A stretch of 64,000 nucleotides of DNA from the NCBI RefSeq assembly GCF_001866055.1, contig NZ_MLQS01000001.1, forward strand, positions 853,356-917,355, written 5' to 3'. Of this stretch, positions 1-8,067 are shown in pieces. This DNA is from Anaerobacillus alkalidiazotrophicus. GTDB taxonomy: Bacteria > Bacillota > Bacilli > Bacillales_H > Anaerobacillaceae. Positions within the stretch are counted from its first letter, which is position 1. Each line of letters starts with the position of its first letter. The position numbers were made by a program, and so were the translations under genes. The notes beneath the pieces were generated by a model. It made no database searches, was not told where the DNA came from, and was given only the letters and a program-made list of their open reading frames with translations.

Positions 1-1257
1 TTTAGTAATCATTTTCATAGCTTCGATTAGAAATGTTCCCGAACCTGCTGATGGATCGATAATGTATGGTAATGAACGGTTTTTATTTAACATATCAATC
101 GATAAATTATCTAACTCCAAACCATATAATAAAAATTGGACAATGTTATGTGGTGTAAAAAATTGTCCTTCAGTTTGTTTAAAACCTCTTCTAATAATTC
201 CTTCAAAGAAATTACCCAAAATGTCGGTTCCATCATTCATATTTGATAATGACTCTGTAAATGAATATTTCTCCAATTGTTGTACAGTAAAAGCCAAATT
301 CGAAAATGAGAACTTTTCCTCAGTTATAACATTGGACTTTTTCGCTTTTCTCTCTTCTATATTTAACCTTTGCACCAATGCTCTTCTATATAATTCATTA
401 ACCCTTTTAAAGACACTTTCTGGGTTCTCCTGTTCTGTATCATCGGGGTTTTCCTCAGATGAATATTGAAGCACTTGAAAAAGGTATTGTTCACCATCAT
501 TTCTTTCTTTCTCATCTTGTATTTTTGCTAATATAATATTAACAAGAGAAGAGAAAATCTCATTATCATCCGTTCCACCACCACCCCATAATACATTATG
601 TAGGGTTTCTCTTATTCCATCTAGTTCAAATAAACTAATATTTTTATATAAATCCTTTTTACCGTTTTTTACATATGGTTCTTTTAAAGCTTTTTCATAC
701 CTTGCAGGGAGTTTATCAGATGATGAAGGTTCATTGGCATCCTTCCAATCTTTATATGTTGGATACTTTTCTTTATCTATTATTACTACTTCATCTACAA
801 GCTCACCATTTCTCTCTACAACAGTATAGTAAACAAGATATTTAATAGGTTTTTCCTCATTGTTAGCAACTAAATATAACTGTTTCTCAATTGCTTCTTC
901 TTTTTCAATCTCATATTTAGATGGACTTTTTACTTCTATAAAGAAAAATATATTTTCATCCTTATCTTTAAGGAGAATGTCAATTCTTGGTTTATTATCT
1001 TTTTTTCTTCCTGCTGATTTGTACTCTCTTTCAAATTCAATAAGCTCAGGTCTATAATTTAACTCATTTACTAATTTCGAGGTCAAATAAGCTCTAACGA
1101 ACTCTTCATTCTCACTATTTTCAGGGAGTGTTTCTATTTTTCTAAACCTTTGCATAATCCTCTCGTCATAGTTAATAAGTCTCTCTGATTCAAAAATTTC
1201 AACAACATCTTCTTCAACCTTATCTAAATAATCAAGTATTAACTGACTCCAACTCAT
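1..1257 (-). CDS. Type I/IIG-like restriction-modification protein, HsdR_N plus N6 adenine methylase (3' end outside window)
   Basis: An open frame of 419 codons runs from ATG 1257 to the window edge without a stop. The start is preceded by an AGGGGG ribosome site. The N-terminal part has a PD-(D/E)XK-type nuclease signature: PRIDILL at about residues 90-96, then FIEVKSP about 15 residues on, as in HsdR N-terminal domains. The C-terminal part has QFFTPHNIV and then DPSAGSGTFLIEAM (motif I, the AdoMet-binding loop of N6 adenine methylases). The catalytic (N/D)PP(Y/F) motif would lie beyond the edge. Known families with this order are restriction-methyltransferase fusions. Inference: a host-defence or element-maintenance gene. 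Specificity and any HsdS partner cannot be seen. Confidence 0.8.
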   Translation of the reverse strand, partial: MSWSQLILDYLDKVEEDVVEIFESERLINYDERIMQRFRKIETLPENSENEEFVRAYLTSKLVNELNYRPELIEFEREYKSAGRKKDNKPRIDILLKDKDENIFFFIEVKSPSKYEIEKEEAIEKQLYLVANNEEKPIKYLVYYTVVERNGELVDEVVIIDKEKYPTYKDWKDANEPSSSDKLPARYEKALKEPYVKNGKKDLYKNISLFELDGIRETLHNVLWGGGGTDDNEIFSSLVNIILAKIQDEKERNDGEQYLFQVLQYSSEENPDDTEQENPESVFKRVNELYRRALVQRLNIEERKAKKSNVITEEKFSFSNLAFTVQQLEKYSFTESLSNMNDGTDILGNFFEGIIRRGFKQTEGQFFTPHNIVQFLLYGLELDNLSIDMLNKNRSLPYIIDPSAGSGTFLIEAMKMITK

Positions 1258-1440: not shown

Positions 1441-1998
1441 TTATTTACTTACTCTCTTTCTAATCTCTCTATATAGAGTTGCTTTTGAAACACTTGTAAT
1501 TTCTTCTATTTCCTTTACTGTATACTGTTCTGTGTCATATAGCTTTATTGCCTTCTCCACCTGCCTGTTATCCTTCTTAGGTCTACCACCTTTACGCCCT
1601 CTTGCTCTAGCACTCTCTAGACCTGCTCTTGTACGTTCCGATATTAAATCCCGTTCCATTTCAGATAAAACAGCTAACATTTTAAACATTGCCTTACCAA
1701 CTGCTGTTGTTGTGTCTATGCTATCTCTAATGCTTACTAATTCAATTCCTCTTTCTTGGAGTTCTTCTGATAGTTCAATTAACCTCTTTGTAGAACGACC
1801 AAGTCTGTCCAATTTATAGACAACTAAAACATCTCCTTCTCTTGCGTACTCGATTAATTGGTTAAGTTGAAGTCTATCATCTTTCATTCCACTCATTTTT
1901 TCTTGATATATCTTTTCACATCCAGCTTTCTCTAAAGCGTCCAATTGTAAATCTAATGATTGCTCCTGTGTACTTACCCTTGCATATCCTATCTTCAT
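1441..1998 (-). CDS. Small serine recombinase (resolvase/invertase family)
   Basis: The 185-aa protein begins MKIGYARVST, with the catalytic serine at residue 9. It continues with YKLDRLGRS and MLAVLSEMERDLI, hallmarks of the Tn3-resolvase/Hin group, and ends in a helix-turn-helix (about residues 145-180) that would bind recombination subsites. ATG 1998 is chosen over the in-frame GTG at 2007 because that GTG lies inside the AAAGGTGG ribosome site. The usual role is resolving multimers or cointegrates, or inverting DNA. Two inverted repeats just upstream (2036-2084 and 2139-2170) are candidate target sites. Its presence beside a Rep gene suggests plasmid-like multimer resolution (inference). 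Confidence 0.9.
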   Translation of the reverse strand: MKIGYARVSTQEQSLDLQLDALEKAGCEKIYQEKMSGMKDDRLQLNQLIEYAREGDVLVVYKLDRLGRSTKRLIELSEELQERGIELVSIRDSIDTTTAVGKAMFKMLAVLSEMERDLISERTRAGLESARARGRKGGRPKKDNRQVEKAIKLYDTEQYTVKEIEEITSVSKATLYREIRKRVSK

Positions 1999-2035
1999 AT
2001 GTACCACCTTTAAATATCAATTTGTTACTTGCATT

Positions 2036-2452: not shown

Positions 2453-3370
2453 CTATTTCTCCAGCGTTATGTAAAGCTGTTGTTGCTTAGTGCTTTGTTG
2501 TTTTATGTTTTTATTATACTCGGCTATTAATTCTTTTCTGTTTCTAATTGTACCATTTTTATAGTAATTTTTTTCCAATATTGTTTTTTCTCCAACTATT
2601 TCAACAAGTCTATTAAAACCTAATACTTTTTCTATATCGGCTACTTTCATTTTGTCTAAAGCTTTAAGTAAATCATTATCCTCGTGTTCCTCTTGACATT
2701 TAAGTAATTCATTTATTTTAAACTTCACGACTATGTATGTAAAAAATGCGTTAGTTATTAAATCGACTGCTTTTCTATCAATTGAATACTCTCTTAAATG
2801 ATAAATAGCTGGTCTTATTTCTAGTCTTAATATTCCCTTTGCTTGTTCTATTATATTTAGTGGCTCTTTTTTGTTAATACATTCTTTTTCTTTATCGTAA
2901 AAACAGATTGAGCTACTTTTATTTTTAAAAATAACTGTTTCATTTTCGTTATATGTTATTTTTGTCCTTTTAGATAAATTCTTTTTATTAATTTCAGATA
3001 TGTATGCTCCCACATTATCGACTTTAAAATTATATGATATGTCTAAACGCTTCACTTTCCATTGCTCTATATTAACGTCGATATTGAAGTGTTCCTTTAG
3101 TGTCGTATGTAACTTAATCCAAAATTCACTAATATCTATCTCCGTTAGCATTTCAGTATTCGTACCATAAACCATTTTTGGAATAGATAATTGCATTTCA
3201 AGTATTTTTTTTTGCAAATTGTATTTATAATTTATCCTCTCTTTTAAAAAAGAATATTTACTTATGAAACTTCCATCATCATTATCTAAATATGTAAATG
3301 GAATTATTCCTTCTAATTGGTTTGGGTTTATGTCTATGTCATAAGCTACTAATGTTACCGTATCAAACAT
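2453..3370 (-). CDS. Phage/plasmid replication protein, gene II/X (Phage_CRI-like) family
   Basis: The 305-aa protein has the pattern of gene II/X-type replication initiators: KRLDISYNF near residue 118, CFYDKEKE near 165 and LRLEIRPA near 190. These proteins nick one strand to start rolling-circle replication in filamentous phages and in some integrative elements of Gram-positive bacteria. ATG 3370 follows a good AGGAGG site. A 46-aa ORF lies just upstream on the same strand, and both probably share the promoter at 3639-3668. A Rep in a chromosomal element implies that the excised form can replicate or be mobilised (inference). I rely on motif order, not on a search. Confidence 0.75.
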   Translation of the reverse strand: MFDTVTLVAYDIDINPNQLEGIIPFTYLDNDDGSFISKYSFLKERINYKYNLQKKILEMQLSIPKMVYGTNTEMLTEIDISEFWIKLHTTLKEHFNIDVNIEQWKVKRLDISYNFKVDNVGAYISEINKKNLSKRTKITYNENETVIFKNKSSSICFYDKEKECINKKEPLNIIEQAKGILRLEIRPAIYHLREYSIDRKAVDLITNAFFTYIVVKFKINELLKCQEEHEDNDLLKALDKMKVADIEKVLGFNRLVEIVGEKTILEKNYYKNGTIRNRKELIAEYNKNIKQQSTKQQQLYITLEK

Positions 3371-3668: not shown

Positions 3669-3687
3669 TATTTTATGCTACTTTATG

Positions 3688-3716
3688 TTGACTTATATGC
3701 TACTAAATGCTATAAT
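3688..3716 (+). promoter_or_regulatory. Rightward sigma-A promoter of the XRE/recombinase operon
   Basis: TTGACT (3688-3693) and TATAAT (3711-3716) have a 17-base spacer. ATGCTAC at 3697-3703 and ATGCTAT at 3707-3713 lie in the spacer and over the -10, which suggests autorepression. The XRE start codon is about 30 bases downstream. Confidence 0.75.
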
Positions 3717-3746
3717 TTAATTATCTTACAAAAGGAGTGCTTAAAA

Positions 3747-4349
3747 ATGAGTGGAATTAATTTCGGTAGTGAATTAAAAAAAATAAGAAAATCAGCAGGT
3801 ATCTCATCTAAGGTGCTATCACAAAAAGTAAATAAGGCTGTTACTTATGTATCTCAATTAGAAAGGGGATTAATTAAGAAACCTGATTTTCATACTTGTT
3901 TACAAATATTATTAGAACTTGGCTTTAATGAAAATGAAGCCAAAAAGACACTTAATTATTTTGATATTAAATCATCCGAACAAGAAAAAGCTGAGTTAGA
4001 AGGGATTATTAAACAAGCAGAAAGCAGTTATGAAGAAGAAATCCTAAAGTATAAAACAGGCTTTTACAGTAATAAAATAGAGAAAATATCGAATAAAAAT
4101 GAGGAAGTTATTGCCCAACTTAGGAAGAACTTAGATTTATTTGTATTACATGACCTCTCAAGAGCCGATAAAGTGCTATCTAATCTGATTTCTATCTTCG
4201 AAAATGAGGAGAAATTTGATTTCTTTTGTTCTGTATTTGAAAATAACTTCTCTAACTTATCTCAAACGGAAAAAGCAAATTTAGTTTCTATGATTACAAA
4301 CTATGTTAGAAAGGCAAATACAGAAAGGATTTTAAATTTAGATGAATGA
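3747..4349 (+). CDS. XRE-family helix-turn-helix regulator
   Basis: A 200-aa protein. ATG 3747 is chosen because AAAGGAG lies just upstream; a longer frame from 3675 would begin inside the promoter. Residues about 6-60 match an XRE/Cro-type helix-turn-helix (GSELKKIRKSAGISSKVLS, then VSQLERGLIKKP). The rest is charged and helical with no recognised domain. It lies 17 bases upstream of the large serine recombinase and is probably co-transcribed with it. With shared operators between divergent promoters, the likely job is to hold the leftward rep operon off and limit its own operon, like a phage repressor (inference). Confidence 0.85.
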   Translation: MSGINFGSELKKIRKSAGISSKVLSQKVNKAVTYVSQLERGLIKKPDFHTCLQILLELGFNENEAKKTLNYFDIKSSEQEKAELEGIIKQAESSYEEEILKYKTGFYSNKIEKISNKNEEVIAQLRKNLDLFVLHDLSRADKVLSNLISIFENEEKFDFFCSVFENNFSNLSQTEKANLVSMITNYVRKANTERILNLDE

Positions 4350-4366: not shown

Positions 4367-5926
4367 ATGAAAAAAGTTGTTTTATATGTACGTGTTTCAA
4401 CAGAAGAGCAAGCAGAAGAAGGTTTTTCAATTAATGGACAAATAAAGGTATTGGAGGATTATTGCCAAAGAAACAAGTTACAAATAGTAAGTACATATAA
4501 AGATGAAGGCTTTAGTGGAAAATCCCTTGATAGACCTTCCCTTAAAGAATTACTTAAAGACTGTGAAAGTGAAGAATTTGACATGGTTATGGTGTGGAAA
4601 ATAAACAGGTTATCACGTAAACAGCTTGATTTTCTAACAATTGTTGACTACTTAGAAAAGCATGACATTAGTCTTTTTAGTTTTAGTGAAAATATTGATG
4701 CTTCTACCTCTGTTGGAAAAGCAATGTTTCAAATGATGGGCAGTTTTGCTGAGCTGGAGAGAAATCAAATAGTTGAAAATGTAAAAATGGGAATGACACA
4801 AAGAGCAAAAGAAGGAAAATTTAATGGTGGAAGTGTTTTAGGCTTTTCCTCAAAGGATAAACGCTTAATTATAAATAATAATGAAGCAAACCTTGTTAAA
4901 TATATATTTGATTTATATATTAGTGGCAAAGGATATAAAGCAATAGCAAATAAGTTAAATCATGAAGGTTACAAAACAAAACGTAATTCTAACTTTTCTA
5001 TTAATTCTATAAAAACAATTATTACAAATCCTATGTATGCTGGCTTCATTCGCTTTAATCAAGTTGAAAATTGGAGTGAAAAAAGAAGAAAAGGTAAGGG
5101 TAATAACATGATTTTGGAAAAAGGCGAACATGACCCAATTATTAGTATGGAAATATGGGAAAAAGCTCAGAAAATAAATGAACAAAAATCACATAAACCA
5201 TCTAAAACATTTACAGGACACTTCCCACTTACAACCCTTTTACGCTGTCCAAAATGTGGACATGGAATGATTGGTCATAAAACTAAAAGGAGTAAAAACA
5301 GTAAGGAATACTTACGTTATTATCAATGTGGGAATTACCGTAACAAAGGAAGTGCAGTTTGCAATTCAAATTTAATAAAGGCTGATGAAGTTGAAATGTT
5401 TATTTTCAAAAAACTAGAAGAAATAACATCTAAACCAATTGTGCTTAAATCCATTGTTGGGAAGGTAAATGAAAAAATAATAACTCTAAAAGAGCCAATC
5501 AAAGAACGACTTAATTACATTTTAGAAAAAATTAAACAAGTAGACAAAAGTATAAATAAGTTTCTTACAATTATTGAGAAAACATCTAATCCCCTTGAGC
5601 CAATATTAGATAAGCTTTCAGAGCTTGATAAAGAAAAAAAAGTATTACTAGAGCAAAAAGTACAATTAGAGTATGAGCTTAATAAACCTACTGTAAGGGA
5701 GATTTCATTAGAGCAATTACAAAATGTGTTAAGCACTTTTTCAAAAATACTCCCTAATGTTGCACCTGAAAAGCAAAAGGATTTACTCCACTCAATCATT
5801 AATAAAATTACCGTCAATGAAGGAGATAAACCAGAAAAAAGAAGTGTCAAAGACATTGAATTGTACTTTGACGCTTCTAAAAATAATAACTATGTGCTTA
5901 CTTATGGTATGGTTCACCCCGATTAA
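4367..5926 (+). CDS. Large serine recombinase (integrase) of the rlmH element
   Basis: The 519-aa protein follows AAGGAGGAATATAA. The resolvase domain has YVRVSTEEQ with catalytic Ser11, KINRLSR and SFAELERN. A Recombinase domain follows (about 165-270), then a zinc ribbon ([21 protein letters not shown]) and a coiled coil (about 370-450), the layout of phage and SCC-type large serine integrases. The gene runs into the reverse strand of rlmH, so its last nine codons (LTYGMVHPD) and stop lie in host rlmH sequence. This places the attachment core at or near 5898-5926 and makes the protein's end depend on integration. It should catalyse att x att recombination at rlmH. Confidence 0.92.
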
Positions 5927-6377
5927 TCCGAAACGCACGATATACCTGTTCCACTAAGATCAACCTCATCAATTGGTGTGGAAAGGTCATTTTTGAAAAG
6001 GAAAGCGCAGCATCGGAACGCTGCATAACCGCTGTACTTAATCCAAGAGAGCCACCAATAATAAAGGTAACTTTGCTACGTCCGTAAGTCGCAAGCTTGT
6101 CTAGTTCCTTAGCCAGTTTTTCTGAACCCCACATTTCTCCTTCGATTGCTAACGCAATGACGTATGCATCTTGAGACACTTTAGCTAAAATACGCTCTCC
6201 TTCTTTTTCTTTTACTTGAAGCATTTCCGCTTCACTTAATTGTTCAGGAGCTTTTTCATCTGGAACTTCAACGATTTCTACCTTCGCATAAGAACCTAAA
6301 CGCTTTATATATTCATTAATTCCATTTTTTAAGTATTTCTCTTTTAACTTACCTACCGTTATAATTGAGATATTCAC
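5898..6377 (-). CDS. rlmH: 23S rRNA (pseudouridine1915-N3)-methyltransferase RlmH
   Basis: The 159-aa SPOUT methyltransferase methylates pseudouridine 1915 in helix 69 of 23S rRNA. Features seen are [12 protein letters not shown] at the N-terminus, the FIIGGSLGL knot region and the conserved tail [20 protein letters not shown] 6377 is chosen because it follows AGGTGGGG by about ten bases and gives the length known for Bacillus; a frame from 6392 would start inside that site. The 3' end is intact and overlaps the integrated element's recombinase by 29 bases. This is the orfX locus of SCC biology. The upstream region is rich in DnaA boxes. Confidence 0.95.
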
Positions 6378-6401
6378 AGTTTTTTTCCCCACCTAAAAAT
6401 G

Positions 6402-6846: not shown

Positions 6847-8067
6847 CTATAATGTTTGCTTCGTTAACGTAAATGTTACGGTGTGCTTCTTACCCTCTCG
6901 GTAAAATGTAACCTCAAGGTCATCTCCAATGTTCTTTTTCGTATATAAAAATTTACGTAAGTCATGTGTGTCTTGGACTTTTTGTCCATCTAGCTCTACA
7001 ATTACATCATATTGATCTAGACCTGCACGATCTGCTGGACTCATTGGTTCGACTCTTTCTAATATAACACCCGCTTTCACATCATCAGGTAACTTAAACG
7101 TTTCTCTCCAATGGTAACTTGGGACTTCTGAAAGAGAACGAATGACAATACCCATTTGCGGACGTTGAACTTCACCGTACTGCTCAAGATCTTCAATAAC
7201 AGGAACAGCAATAGCACTAGGAATAGAAAAACCTATTCCTTCAACAGATCCGGCAATCTTCATAGAATTAATACCAATGACCTGTCCTTGAATATTTATC
7301 AGAGCTCCACCACTATTACCTGGGTTAATAGCTGCATCTGTTTGTAAAACCTCTGCTTCCCAGTCAACACGCCCATCTTTATTTAAATCAACCGGAACAC
7401 TTCTTTCAGTCGCACTAATAATTCCTTGTGTAACCGTACGAGAAAACTGTAATCCTAATGGGTTACCAATAGCAATCGCAGGTTCTCCTACTCGCAATAG
7501 CTCGGAATTACCGAATTCTGCTACTGTTTCAACATCGTCAGCTGAAATCCTTAGTACGGCTAAATCAGTTATAATATCTGCTCCAAGTAGTTCTGCTGAA
7601 ACTCTTGAACCATTACTTAAACTCACTTCTATTTGTTGTGCTCCATCTATAACATGCTGATTTGTCACAACATAGGCATGACCATTATTTTTCTTATAAA
7701 TAACTCCAGACCCAGTTCCTTCTCCTTGTGTTGTTGACCAAAAATTTGATTGTTTTAAATTAATAACACCTACAACTGCATCTGAAACACGTTCTACCGC
7801 TTCTGTTATATCTGAATTAACGGTTATATTTAATGTACTATCTACCTGCGAGGAAGCTGGTATCAGTTCTGGTTGAGTAGTTTCAGCGCTTTGGCCTTTT
7901 GGAACTACTTCATAAGGTAGCAACCCATAGCTGGAGAGAAATGGAACAGAAAAGATGACAAGCAAAGCTCCAACTACTGAACTAAAGAAAGCTGTAACTC
8001 CTATCCCTTTTACATTTTTTCGTTTACTTCTTGTTTCTGTTTGATAATGCTCATCGTAATATCCCAC
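6847..8067 (-). CDS. htrC: HtrA/DegP-like membrane serine protease (YyxA/HtrC)
   Basis: A 406-aa protease. One membrane segment at about residues 24-46 places the catalytic domain outside the cell. The triad is visible: His138 (VTNQHVIDG), Asp168 (ITDLAVLRI) and Ser252 (INPGNSGGA). A PDZ domain fills about 295-400. GTG 8067 follows GGAGGGT. HtrA proteases degrade or refold damaged exported proteins. It follows the wal operon as in other Bacilli, with about 110 bases and a weak hairpin between, so it may be partly co-transcribed. Confidence 0.93.
   Translation of the reverse strand: MGYYDEHYQTETRSKRKNVKGIGVTAFFSSVVGALLVIFSVPFLSSYGLLPYEVVPKGQSAETTQPELIPASSQVDSTLNITVNSDITEAVERVSDAVVGVINLKQSNFWSTTQGEGTGSGVIYKKNNGHAYVVTNQHVIDGAQQIEVSLSNGSRVSAELLGADIITDLAVLRISADDVETVAEFGNSELLRVGEPAIAIGNPLGLQFSRTVTQGIISATERSVPVDLNKDGRVDWEAEVLQTDAAINPGNSGGALINIQGQVIGINSMKIAGSVEGIGFSIPSAIAVPVIEDLEQYGEVQRPQMGIVIRSLSEVPSYHWRETFKLPDDVKAGVILERVEPMSPADRAGLDQYDVIVELDGQKVQDTHDLRKFLYTKKNIGDDLEVTFYREGKKHTVTFTLTKQTL

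Follow-up and report, generated by a model that had tools for sequence, protein, structure and literature searches.

At the left of the window, a 64,000-nucleotide stretch of Anaerobacillus alkalidiazotrophicus DNA (contig NZ_MLQS01000001.1), lies what appears to be an SCC-like integrative element inserted at rlmH, of which the window holds the integrase end. Its large serine integrase gene (int) would span the element's own attachment site, attP. In the circular element, int would read through the whole of attP, and a conserved hydrophobic strand would form the C-terminus of its product. When attP recombines with the 3' end of rlmH, DNA would be swapped at a TC dinucleotide and the last int codons carried to the far end of the element. 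The integrated gene would gain a host-encoded end, three residues (HPD) followed by a stop that lies antisense to a conserved Ile-Asn pair of RlmH, and the incoming half of attP would rebuild the final rlmH codons. Because the exchange at TC moves the end of int, integration would alter the C-terminus of the integrase and excision would restore the original one.

The evidence comes largely from relatives, which show the dyad symmetry of attP, both element ends, a conserved rejoined tail and silent change within that tail at the level of sequence. An int gene that spans attP and has its 3' end at the far end of the element is very probably the rule in this family. The window element is likely to be built in the same way, as its relatives indicate; its own far end falls outside the window, to the left of position 1. 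Whether the altered C-terminus also changes what the enzyme does is a question of function, on which our view is more tentative.

Results

The integrase gene ends inside rlmH

The int gene (4367-5926, forward strand) encodes 519 amino acids in its integrated-state reading frame, which is intact. Three Pfam domains above their cut-offs, Resolvase (PF00239), Recombinase (PF07508) and Zn_ribbon_recom (PF13408), make the product a large serine recombinase. On the reverse strand, rlmH (5898-6392) is also intact. Its 164-amino-acid product carries the SPOUT_MTase domain and ends in RGEPYHK followed by the stop. The two frames share 29 bp (5898-5926), and the int stop, TAA at 5924-5926, falls within rlmH, antisense to the TT of an Ile codon and the A of an Asn codon. 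An earlier prediction from the sequence alone had described both the 29-base overlap and the intact rlmH, and both descriptions hold.

Which of these bases belong to the element and which to the host? Judging from the 20 relatives described below, int codons up to V516 would be element DNA, and HPD with the stop (5915-5926, forward strand, antisense to RlmH codons I-N-R-G) would be host-derived. The rlmH stop and the codons for K, H, Y and P (5898-5912) would in turn be supplied by the element, and the Glu codon (5913-5915) spans the putative crossover. The original prediction had assigned the whole of LTYGMVHPD and the stop to the host. HPD and the stop do appear to be host sequence, but LTYGMV would belong to the element's half of attP, given the crossover seen in relatives.

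The nearest genome compared, G001, is 94% identical to the window over rlmH to htrA. The match reaches exactly as far as the rlmH stop (5898) and ends there, with other DNA downstream of rlmH in G001. The integrase matches listed for G001 include none at rlmH, so this genome can be used as an empty-site comparator.

Like SCC and other cassette chromosomes, the window element is inserted at the 3' end of rlmH. Among NCBIfam models, the integrase matches CcrB best, at 407.5 bits against a cut-off of 900, followed by CcrC (326.8 bits, cut-off 900) and CcrA (137.2 bits, cut-off 700). The likeness to SCC that had been suggested holds in part: CcrB is the closest model, but equivalog level is reached for none of ccrA, ccrB and ccrC.

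Joined ends of relatives place the putative crossover at TC

We rebuilt attP in 20 related elements with both ends by joining the int-side flank to the far-side flank. A direct repeat of the rlmH end is present at both ends of these elements. Once joined, attP forms a 50-bp inverted repeat with imperfect arms, as in G1281 (ctttgtgcttacttatggtacggtt^CACCGTAATGTATCTAAGCACAAAG). The best dyad centre lies between the T and C of GGTTC in all 20 joined sites; the mean score there is 15.9 of 25 matches, compared with 5.2-8.6 at 24 other centres. Transferred to the window, this centre would place the 25-nt int-side half of attP at 5890-5914 (forward strand). The crossover would fall at the dinucleotide TC of 5914-5915 (forward strand), which reads GA in the sense of rlmH.

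The int-side bases beside the core (for example CTATTTATGG or TCACTTATGA) track the integrase lineage. Beyond GGTTC, the near end continues as host rlmH and the far end as an arm specific to the lineage. Since the core-side bases follow the integrase and host rlmH begins only beyond GGTTC, the last rlmH codons appear to be element-derived. The far flanks of L011, L016, L118, L129, G604 and G698 read AACCTCATTTACTTATG, identical to the G001 site. At the near ends of the L002 group (L002, L113, L114 and L115), these codons even rewrite the conserved RlmH C-terminus YHK-stop to YIF-stop or YLV-stop.

In the L002 group, the nearest far-end candidates, 2-3 kb from int (L142, L146, L147 and L150), were rejected, as their joined attP had only 5-7 of 25 dyad matches; farther core copies for L114 and L113 (L143 and L148) gave 15 and 16. 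No convincing far end was found for L002 or L115, which were left out of the 20 pairs, as was L019, whose candidates (L153-L155) are ambiguous. A second far-end candidate for L129 (L156:584, score 11) was set aside. Two further elements stand outside the 20 pairs: G498, which has an in-frame stop in int, and G1044, in which int is followed by non-rlmH DNA (integrated tail HRIIYRAK) and the far end is doubtful. Within the 20 pairs, L018 and L163 have partial integrase frames, and the near end of L202 lies at a short rlmH fragment beside a second core copy.

Some sites carry more than one core. Tandem rlmH-end cores occur at G044:C11, G086:C11, G173:C1 and G1278:C1, much as in composite SCC islands; the two cores of G1278 are separated by a short fragment of the rlmH 3' end. 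At L103, in G004, two cores 3.4 kb apart lie 3' of rlmH (4186-4200 and 7598-7612 of that locus, in rlmH-sense orientation), and one search found no strong integrase match in that genome. This stretch may be what is left of an element, or a cassette that was mobilized in trans.

Relatives carry the displaced end of int at their far ends

When the int frame is read across the joined attP, the circular and integrated tails differ in 19 of 20 pairs; in the twentieth, L111, int stops before the site. In relatives, then, the end of the integrase does change on excision, as the original prediction had expected for the window. The rejoined tails end in FTVVI-stop in six pairs, FSVLF-stop in one and FTVTLxRV(N/K)-stop in six. 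In the six pairs of the window clade, the tails are 19 amino acids long in five (HRSNNKHKHAFENTIYIVI, HRNVSKHKGRFDHKVYICI, HRSIPKHKVRFDHKVYINI, HRIQPNNMVNFEHKVFISI and PRVVNKHKVINSTLIYISI) and 21 in one (HRTSPKNTVNSANIIFINILA), with a hydrophobic strand at the end. Outside the 20 pairs, G498 gives an 18-residue rejoined tail (HRTYPKHIVYDRMVRITI), and the candidate far end of G1044 gives a tail with no strand (HRNIYEREKTSALISTTK).

The far-arm pattern matched at 56 places, spread over 51 of the 397 genomes sampled from one order; reversed-pattern controls gave zero. Far ends of the FTVVI type account for 35 places and 13 haplotypes. The stop codon (TAA, TGA or TAG) is kept in 35 of 35, and the probability that all haplotypes would retain a stop is 0.003 (uncorrected for kinship). 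Relative to the commonest haplotype, 12 of 21 changes fall at third positions, which make up four of the ten free sites; the second-position changes are three, all TAA to TGA. In codons 2-5, the peptide is changed in four of 13 haplotypes against 9.8 expected under random placement (P = 5e-5, again with kinship uncorrected). One further haplotype of this type differs in codon 1. Flanks were fetched for 30 far-end loci, which we divided by tail into FTVVI-like and other. The stop is in place in each of the 18 FTVVI-like loci, and 11 of the other 12 stop directly after the attP arm (the exception is L231).

The tails of the window clade can be divided at the edge of the arm. Beyond it, codons with a single difference comprise 35 silent and 10 replacing changes (10 pairs from five sequences, with 53 multi-difference codons left out of the count). 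Inside the arm there are 12 silent and 18 replacing changes, no sign of coding constraint.

Do integrases in protein databases carry the rejoined tail? It ends none of the 120 L007-type proteins listed (of 164); in 114 of these 120, the core is followed by other residues. The C-termini of P0151, P0205, P0227 and P0231 (FTVMYLNEV or FTVMYLSAVF type) are neither antisense rlmH nor the rejoined tail. These four are perhaps inserted beside the far end of another element.

Integrases with an uninterrupted C-terminus

The rejoined tails resemble, in sequence, the C-terminal strand of relatives that have no rlmH core. Among P0045-P0120, 76 of the 120 proteins listed of 205, 57 are core-free as judged by a text pattern, which overlooks a few cores. 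The last residue is Ile in 37 of the 57 and Ile, Val or Leu in 44 (for example RFTIVI, RFTIAI and NFDITI). Integrase loci with no rlmH nearby, of which 42 of 43 are readable, give a similar picture: 37 lack the core, 29 of them ending in Ile or Leu, and five carry it.

One database protein of the window clade, P0038, ends TVHRTYSKHIVLDRKVRIII, with TV-HRTYSKHIVLDRKVRIII at its close. As 14 of 18 tail residues are those predicted from the G498 far end, P0038 is a natural uninterrupted integrase, from a circle or a tandem copy. A circular form was not found among plasmids (four distant matches, the best 49% identical), phages or viral contigs (one 33% relative).

AlphaFold models were made of P0038, with 78 aligned sequences, and of the window protein, with the same set. 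The P0038 model (mean pLDDT 87) has a final strand at residues 537-540, preceded by a linker (514-533) with pLDDT below 50. Mean pLDDT is 65 over residues 531-540 and rises to 88 at the final residue, which makes the strand moderately sure. The window protein model (mean pLDDT 84) has no such final strand, and its residues 511-519 fall below 50. The P0038 model matches the structures of the SPbeta, A118, Bxb1 and phiC31 integrases to about residue 510, so the integrated form retains the known domains of large serine recombinases. The tail, which is barely tested by these matches, may lie outside the functional core of the modelled enzyme.

Other genes of the window element

Directly 5' of int is a gene for an XRE-family regulator (3675-4349, forward strand) with a homologue in six of seven related elements. 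A G2P-like (Phage_CRI) replication protein is encoded at 2453-3370 (reverse strand); blastp finds homologues (E 3.3e-5 or better) in four of the seven elements and none in G1278, G026 and G112. With this protein encoded beside the integrase and homologues in those four elements, the circular form may undergo rolling-circle replication. Next comes a small serine resolvase (1441-2007, reverse strand). It is 90% identical to one in the 5.8-kb G026 element, whereas the integrases of the two elements are only 60% identical; the sequences perhaps reflect a recent exchange of the resolvase module. The window edge cuts through a restriction-modification gene (HSDR_N_2 and N6_Mtase), whose first part occupies 1-1257 (reverse strand) and which is probably defence cargo. 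SCC is also recognized by a helicase neighbour; the genes adjoining int within the window are those for the XRE regulator, the replication protein and the resolvase, and the element continues to the left.

There, left of position 1, we predict that TTAYTTATGRTAYGGTTC recurs and leads into an arm that pairs approximately with 5890-5914 and contains about AAGCACATAG. An in-frame tail of about 18-21 amino acids, with a hydrophobic strand and a stop at its end, should also be present.

Frequency and origin of the overlap

The loci surveyed were the best-scoring integrase matches from searches of relatives, of one order, of one class and of two families, with at most 20-30 from each and a bias to close relatives. 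L021 was added from one further search, in which 62 other loci had no rlmH, bringing the total to 87 with the window included. At 44 of the 87, rlmH lies within the fetched stretch. We counted 41 of these after dropping L110, a duplicate of L021, and L168 and L185, where a non-integrase open reading frame occupies the rlmH end.

In 38 of the 41, the window among them, the integrase runs into rlmH, with overlaps of 29-450 bp. The largest, 231 bp in L172 and 450 bp in L186, call for caution since rlmH is poorly matched there (43 and 59% identity). An overlap unique to the window can be rejected, and the proposal that rlmH is the attachment gene, with the integrase at the junction, is supported. 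The other three integrases (L002, L111 and L179) stop before rlmH, so reading into it is not required.

The overlaps fall into two phases. In 30 of 38, integrase codons are exactly antisense to rlmH codons; the other eight, including the window, use a second phase, in which the stop pairs with the final two bases of an Ile codon (ATT or ATC) plus the A that comes next. Because this stop is antisense to the conserved Ile-Asn of rlmH, exactly three residues follow the core in 31 of 44 window-clade proteins (window included). Host-coded tails range from two to more than 45 residues and share no common end.

The integrase tree has 69 rows; L110, L168, L185, L186, L172, L018, L163 and frames under 400 amino acids were left out, and two long rows, L019 and L183, are unsure. 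The window clade comprises seven rows, including P0038, with support of 98/90. This clade, a second split set (the L004, L011 and L002 groups) and L019 all lie apart from the main relatives. The split label requires four changes on the tree, as forced by the starred branches. A single origin finds no support in these four changes and the two phases, which together suggest that the split arrangement arose more than once, although some deep branches are weakly supported.

Discussion

What might the displaced strand do? It is possible, though we would not wager on it, that the C-terminal strand aids integration of the circular form and that its loss weakens the ability of newly made enzyme to repeat or reverse the reaction. 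The moderate, rather than high, confidence of the strand in the P0038 model slightly lowers our estimate. A slightly bolder version, in which attP itself acts as a protein switch, we regard as marginally more doubtful: the strand-bearing enzyme of the circle would be competent for integration, and the host-antisense residues acquired afterwards would report the integrated state and bias the reaction.

There is close to an even chance that the same anatomy involves no switch at all. Overlap of attP and int would serve compactness, the tail would be weakly selected and the integrated enzyme would work alike; this explanation competes with the switch over function only. It draws strength from the structural matches that end near residue 510 of the P0038 model, from host-coded tails of such varied length and ending, and from the three relatives that stop before the site. 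It accounts less well for the mostly silent changes and preserved stops of FTVVI-type tails, for the similar endings of relatives with no core and for the strand modelled, with moderate confidence, in the tail.

Three other explanations bear on the anatomy itself. The window element could be a dead remnant that has lost its far end and whose integrase merely abuts rlmH. Its far end does lie outside the window, and decay is seen among relatives, in the in-frame stop of G498 and the partial frames of L018 and L163. In the window, however, int, the XRE gene, rep and the resolvase gene are all open frames, and their homologues occur in elements of 5.6-12.3 kb with both ends recovered, which makes a remnant unlikely. 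We find it quite implausible that the far end is conserved only as DNA, for binding of integrase to attP, with the in-frame peptide as a by-product. Much of the short tails does lie within the 25-nt arm that binding must conserve, and window-clade tails show no silent bias there. Yet third positions are favoured and every stop is kept among FTVVI-type tails, the conserved strand and stop of the window clade lie beyond the arm, and in 11 of the 12 other far-end loci the stop comes immediately past the arm. Finally, the reading in which int, with its intact frame and recombinase domains, is complete when integrated, borrows its last nine residues and stop from the host attB and has no part elsewhere is scarcely tenable given the position of LTYGMV, which falls to the element's side of the crossover as placed in relatives, the conserved int tail at their far ends and the joining of both parts in P0038.

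How does an int gene that spans attP compare with known systems? SCC of Staphylococcus, with its CcrB and CcrC recombinases, and the window element both have a large serine recombinase and insertion at the 3' end of rlmH. The last rlmH codons are repeated at the ends of SCC, as they are in the relatives of the window element. The ccr genes are internal to SCC and uncut by att. The window integrase gene, in contrast, straddles the junction.

The original prediction had seen in the window a strategy like that of SCC beyond the staphylococci. Such a strategy is not new, since rlmH islands with large serine recombinases have already been published from other bacteria (PMC6222049, PMC10061031). According to the available text on the Enterococcus cassette chromosome, that element uses the rlmH site, serine recombinases and dyad att sites, its circularization was shown by PCR, and six of 32 have a rolling-circle rep gene (PMC6222049). 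It differs in having two recombinases, ccrAB, and that text describes no split recombinase gene. Islands of Bacillota, as far as the accessible account goes, lie 3' of rlmH outside staphylococci, encode large serine recombinases, form tandem composites and carry restriction-modification cargo, and their second end was located by matching the final ~12 bp of rlmH (PMC10061031). They were chosen for Pol-SSB-helicase genes, and the same account does not mention a split recombinase gene.

The closest precedent for the split is archaeal. In the consulted sections of a review, SSV-type suicidal integrases have attP inside the gene, so that integration parts it to two ends, and such self-separation is said to be exclusively archaeal (PMC8371274). 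Those enzymes are tyrosine recombinases, and the separated C-terminal part bears the catalytic domain. The rlmH-type integrase is a serine recombinase from which no more than a short C-terminal tail is removed, with host residues taking its place. The window int, with its serine domains, is not a tyrosine recombinase of the SSV, pTN3 or pT26-2 type; separation of the gene by attP is seen in relatives (19 of 20 pairs), and the window shows the int side alone. In KplE1-type prophages, as covered in the available excerpt, att overlaps the integrase gene unit and ties expression to integration (PMC2951348). There the overlap is with the promoter, whereas in rlmH-type elements it is with the end of the coding sequence. 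Our literature search, confined to open-licence PMC papers, found no bacterial or serine self-splitting integrase, only the archaeal case. Given that result and the review's archaeal-only claim, the anatomy is best described as a mild serine-type counterpart of known self-disruption in a new setting, in which the part removed is small and possibly regulatory.

The rlmH-type serine integrases mildly contradict the view, as stated in the part of the review available, that self-disruption is confined to archaea (PMC8371274). Nor is the split type rare: a single far-end tail pattern occurs in those 51 of 397 sampled genomes of one order. There is also a practical consequence. Large serine recombinases have been mined from integrated elements with a gene caller, by the procedure given in the accessible text of PMC10083194. 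Mining of that kind would register a C-terminus altered by host sequence instead of the one with which the enzyme integrates; none of the 120 L007-type proteins listed has the rejoined tail. The system allows a direct test of whether the integrase C-terminus controls the direction of the reaction. If the switch is real, direction would be biased at that step with no separate factor. Bacteria and archaea would in that case have evolved self-disrupting integrases independently, in both recombinase superfamilies, and at rlmH this would probably have happened more than once, in two reading phases and at least two lineages.
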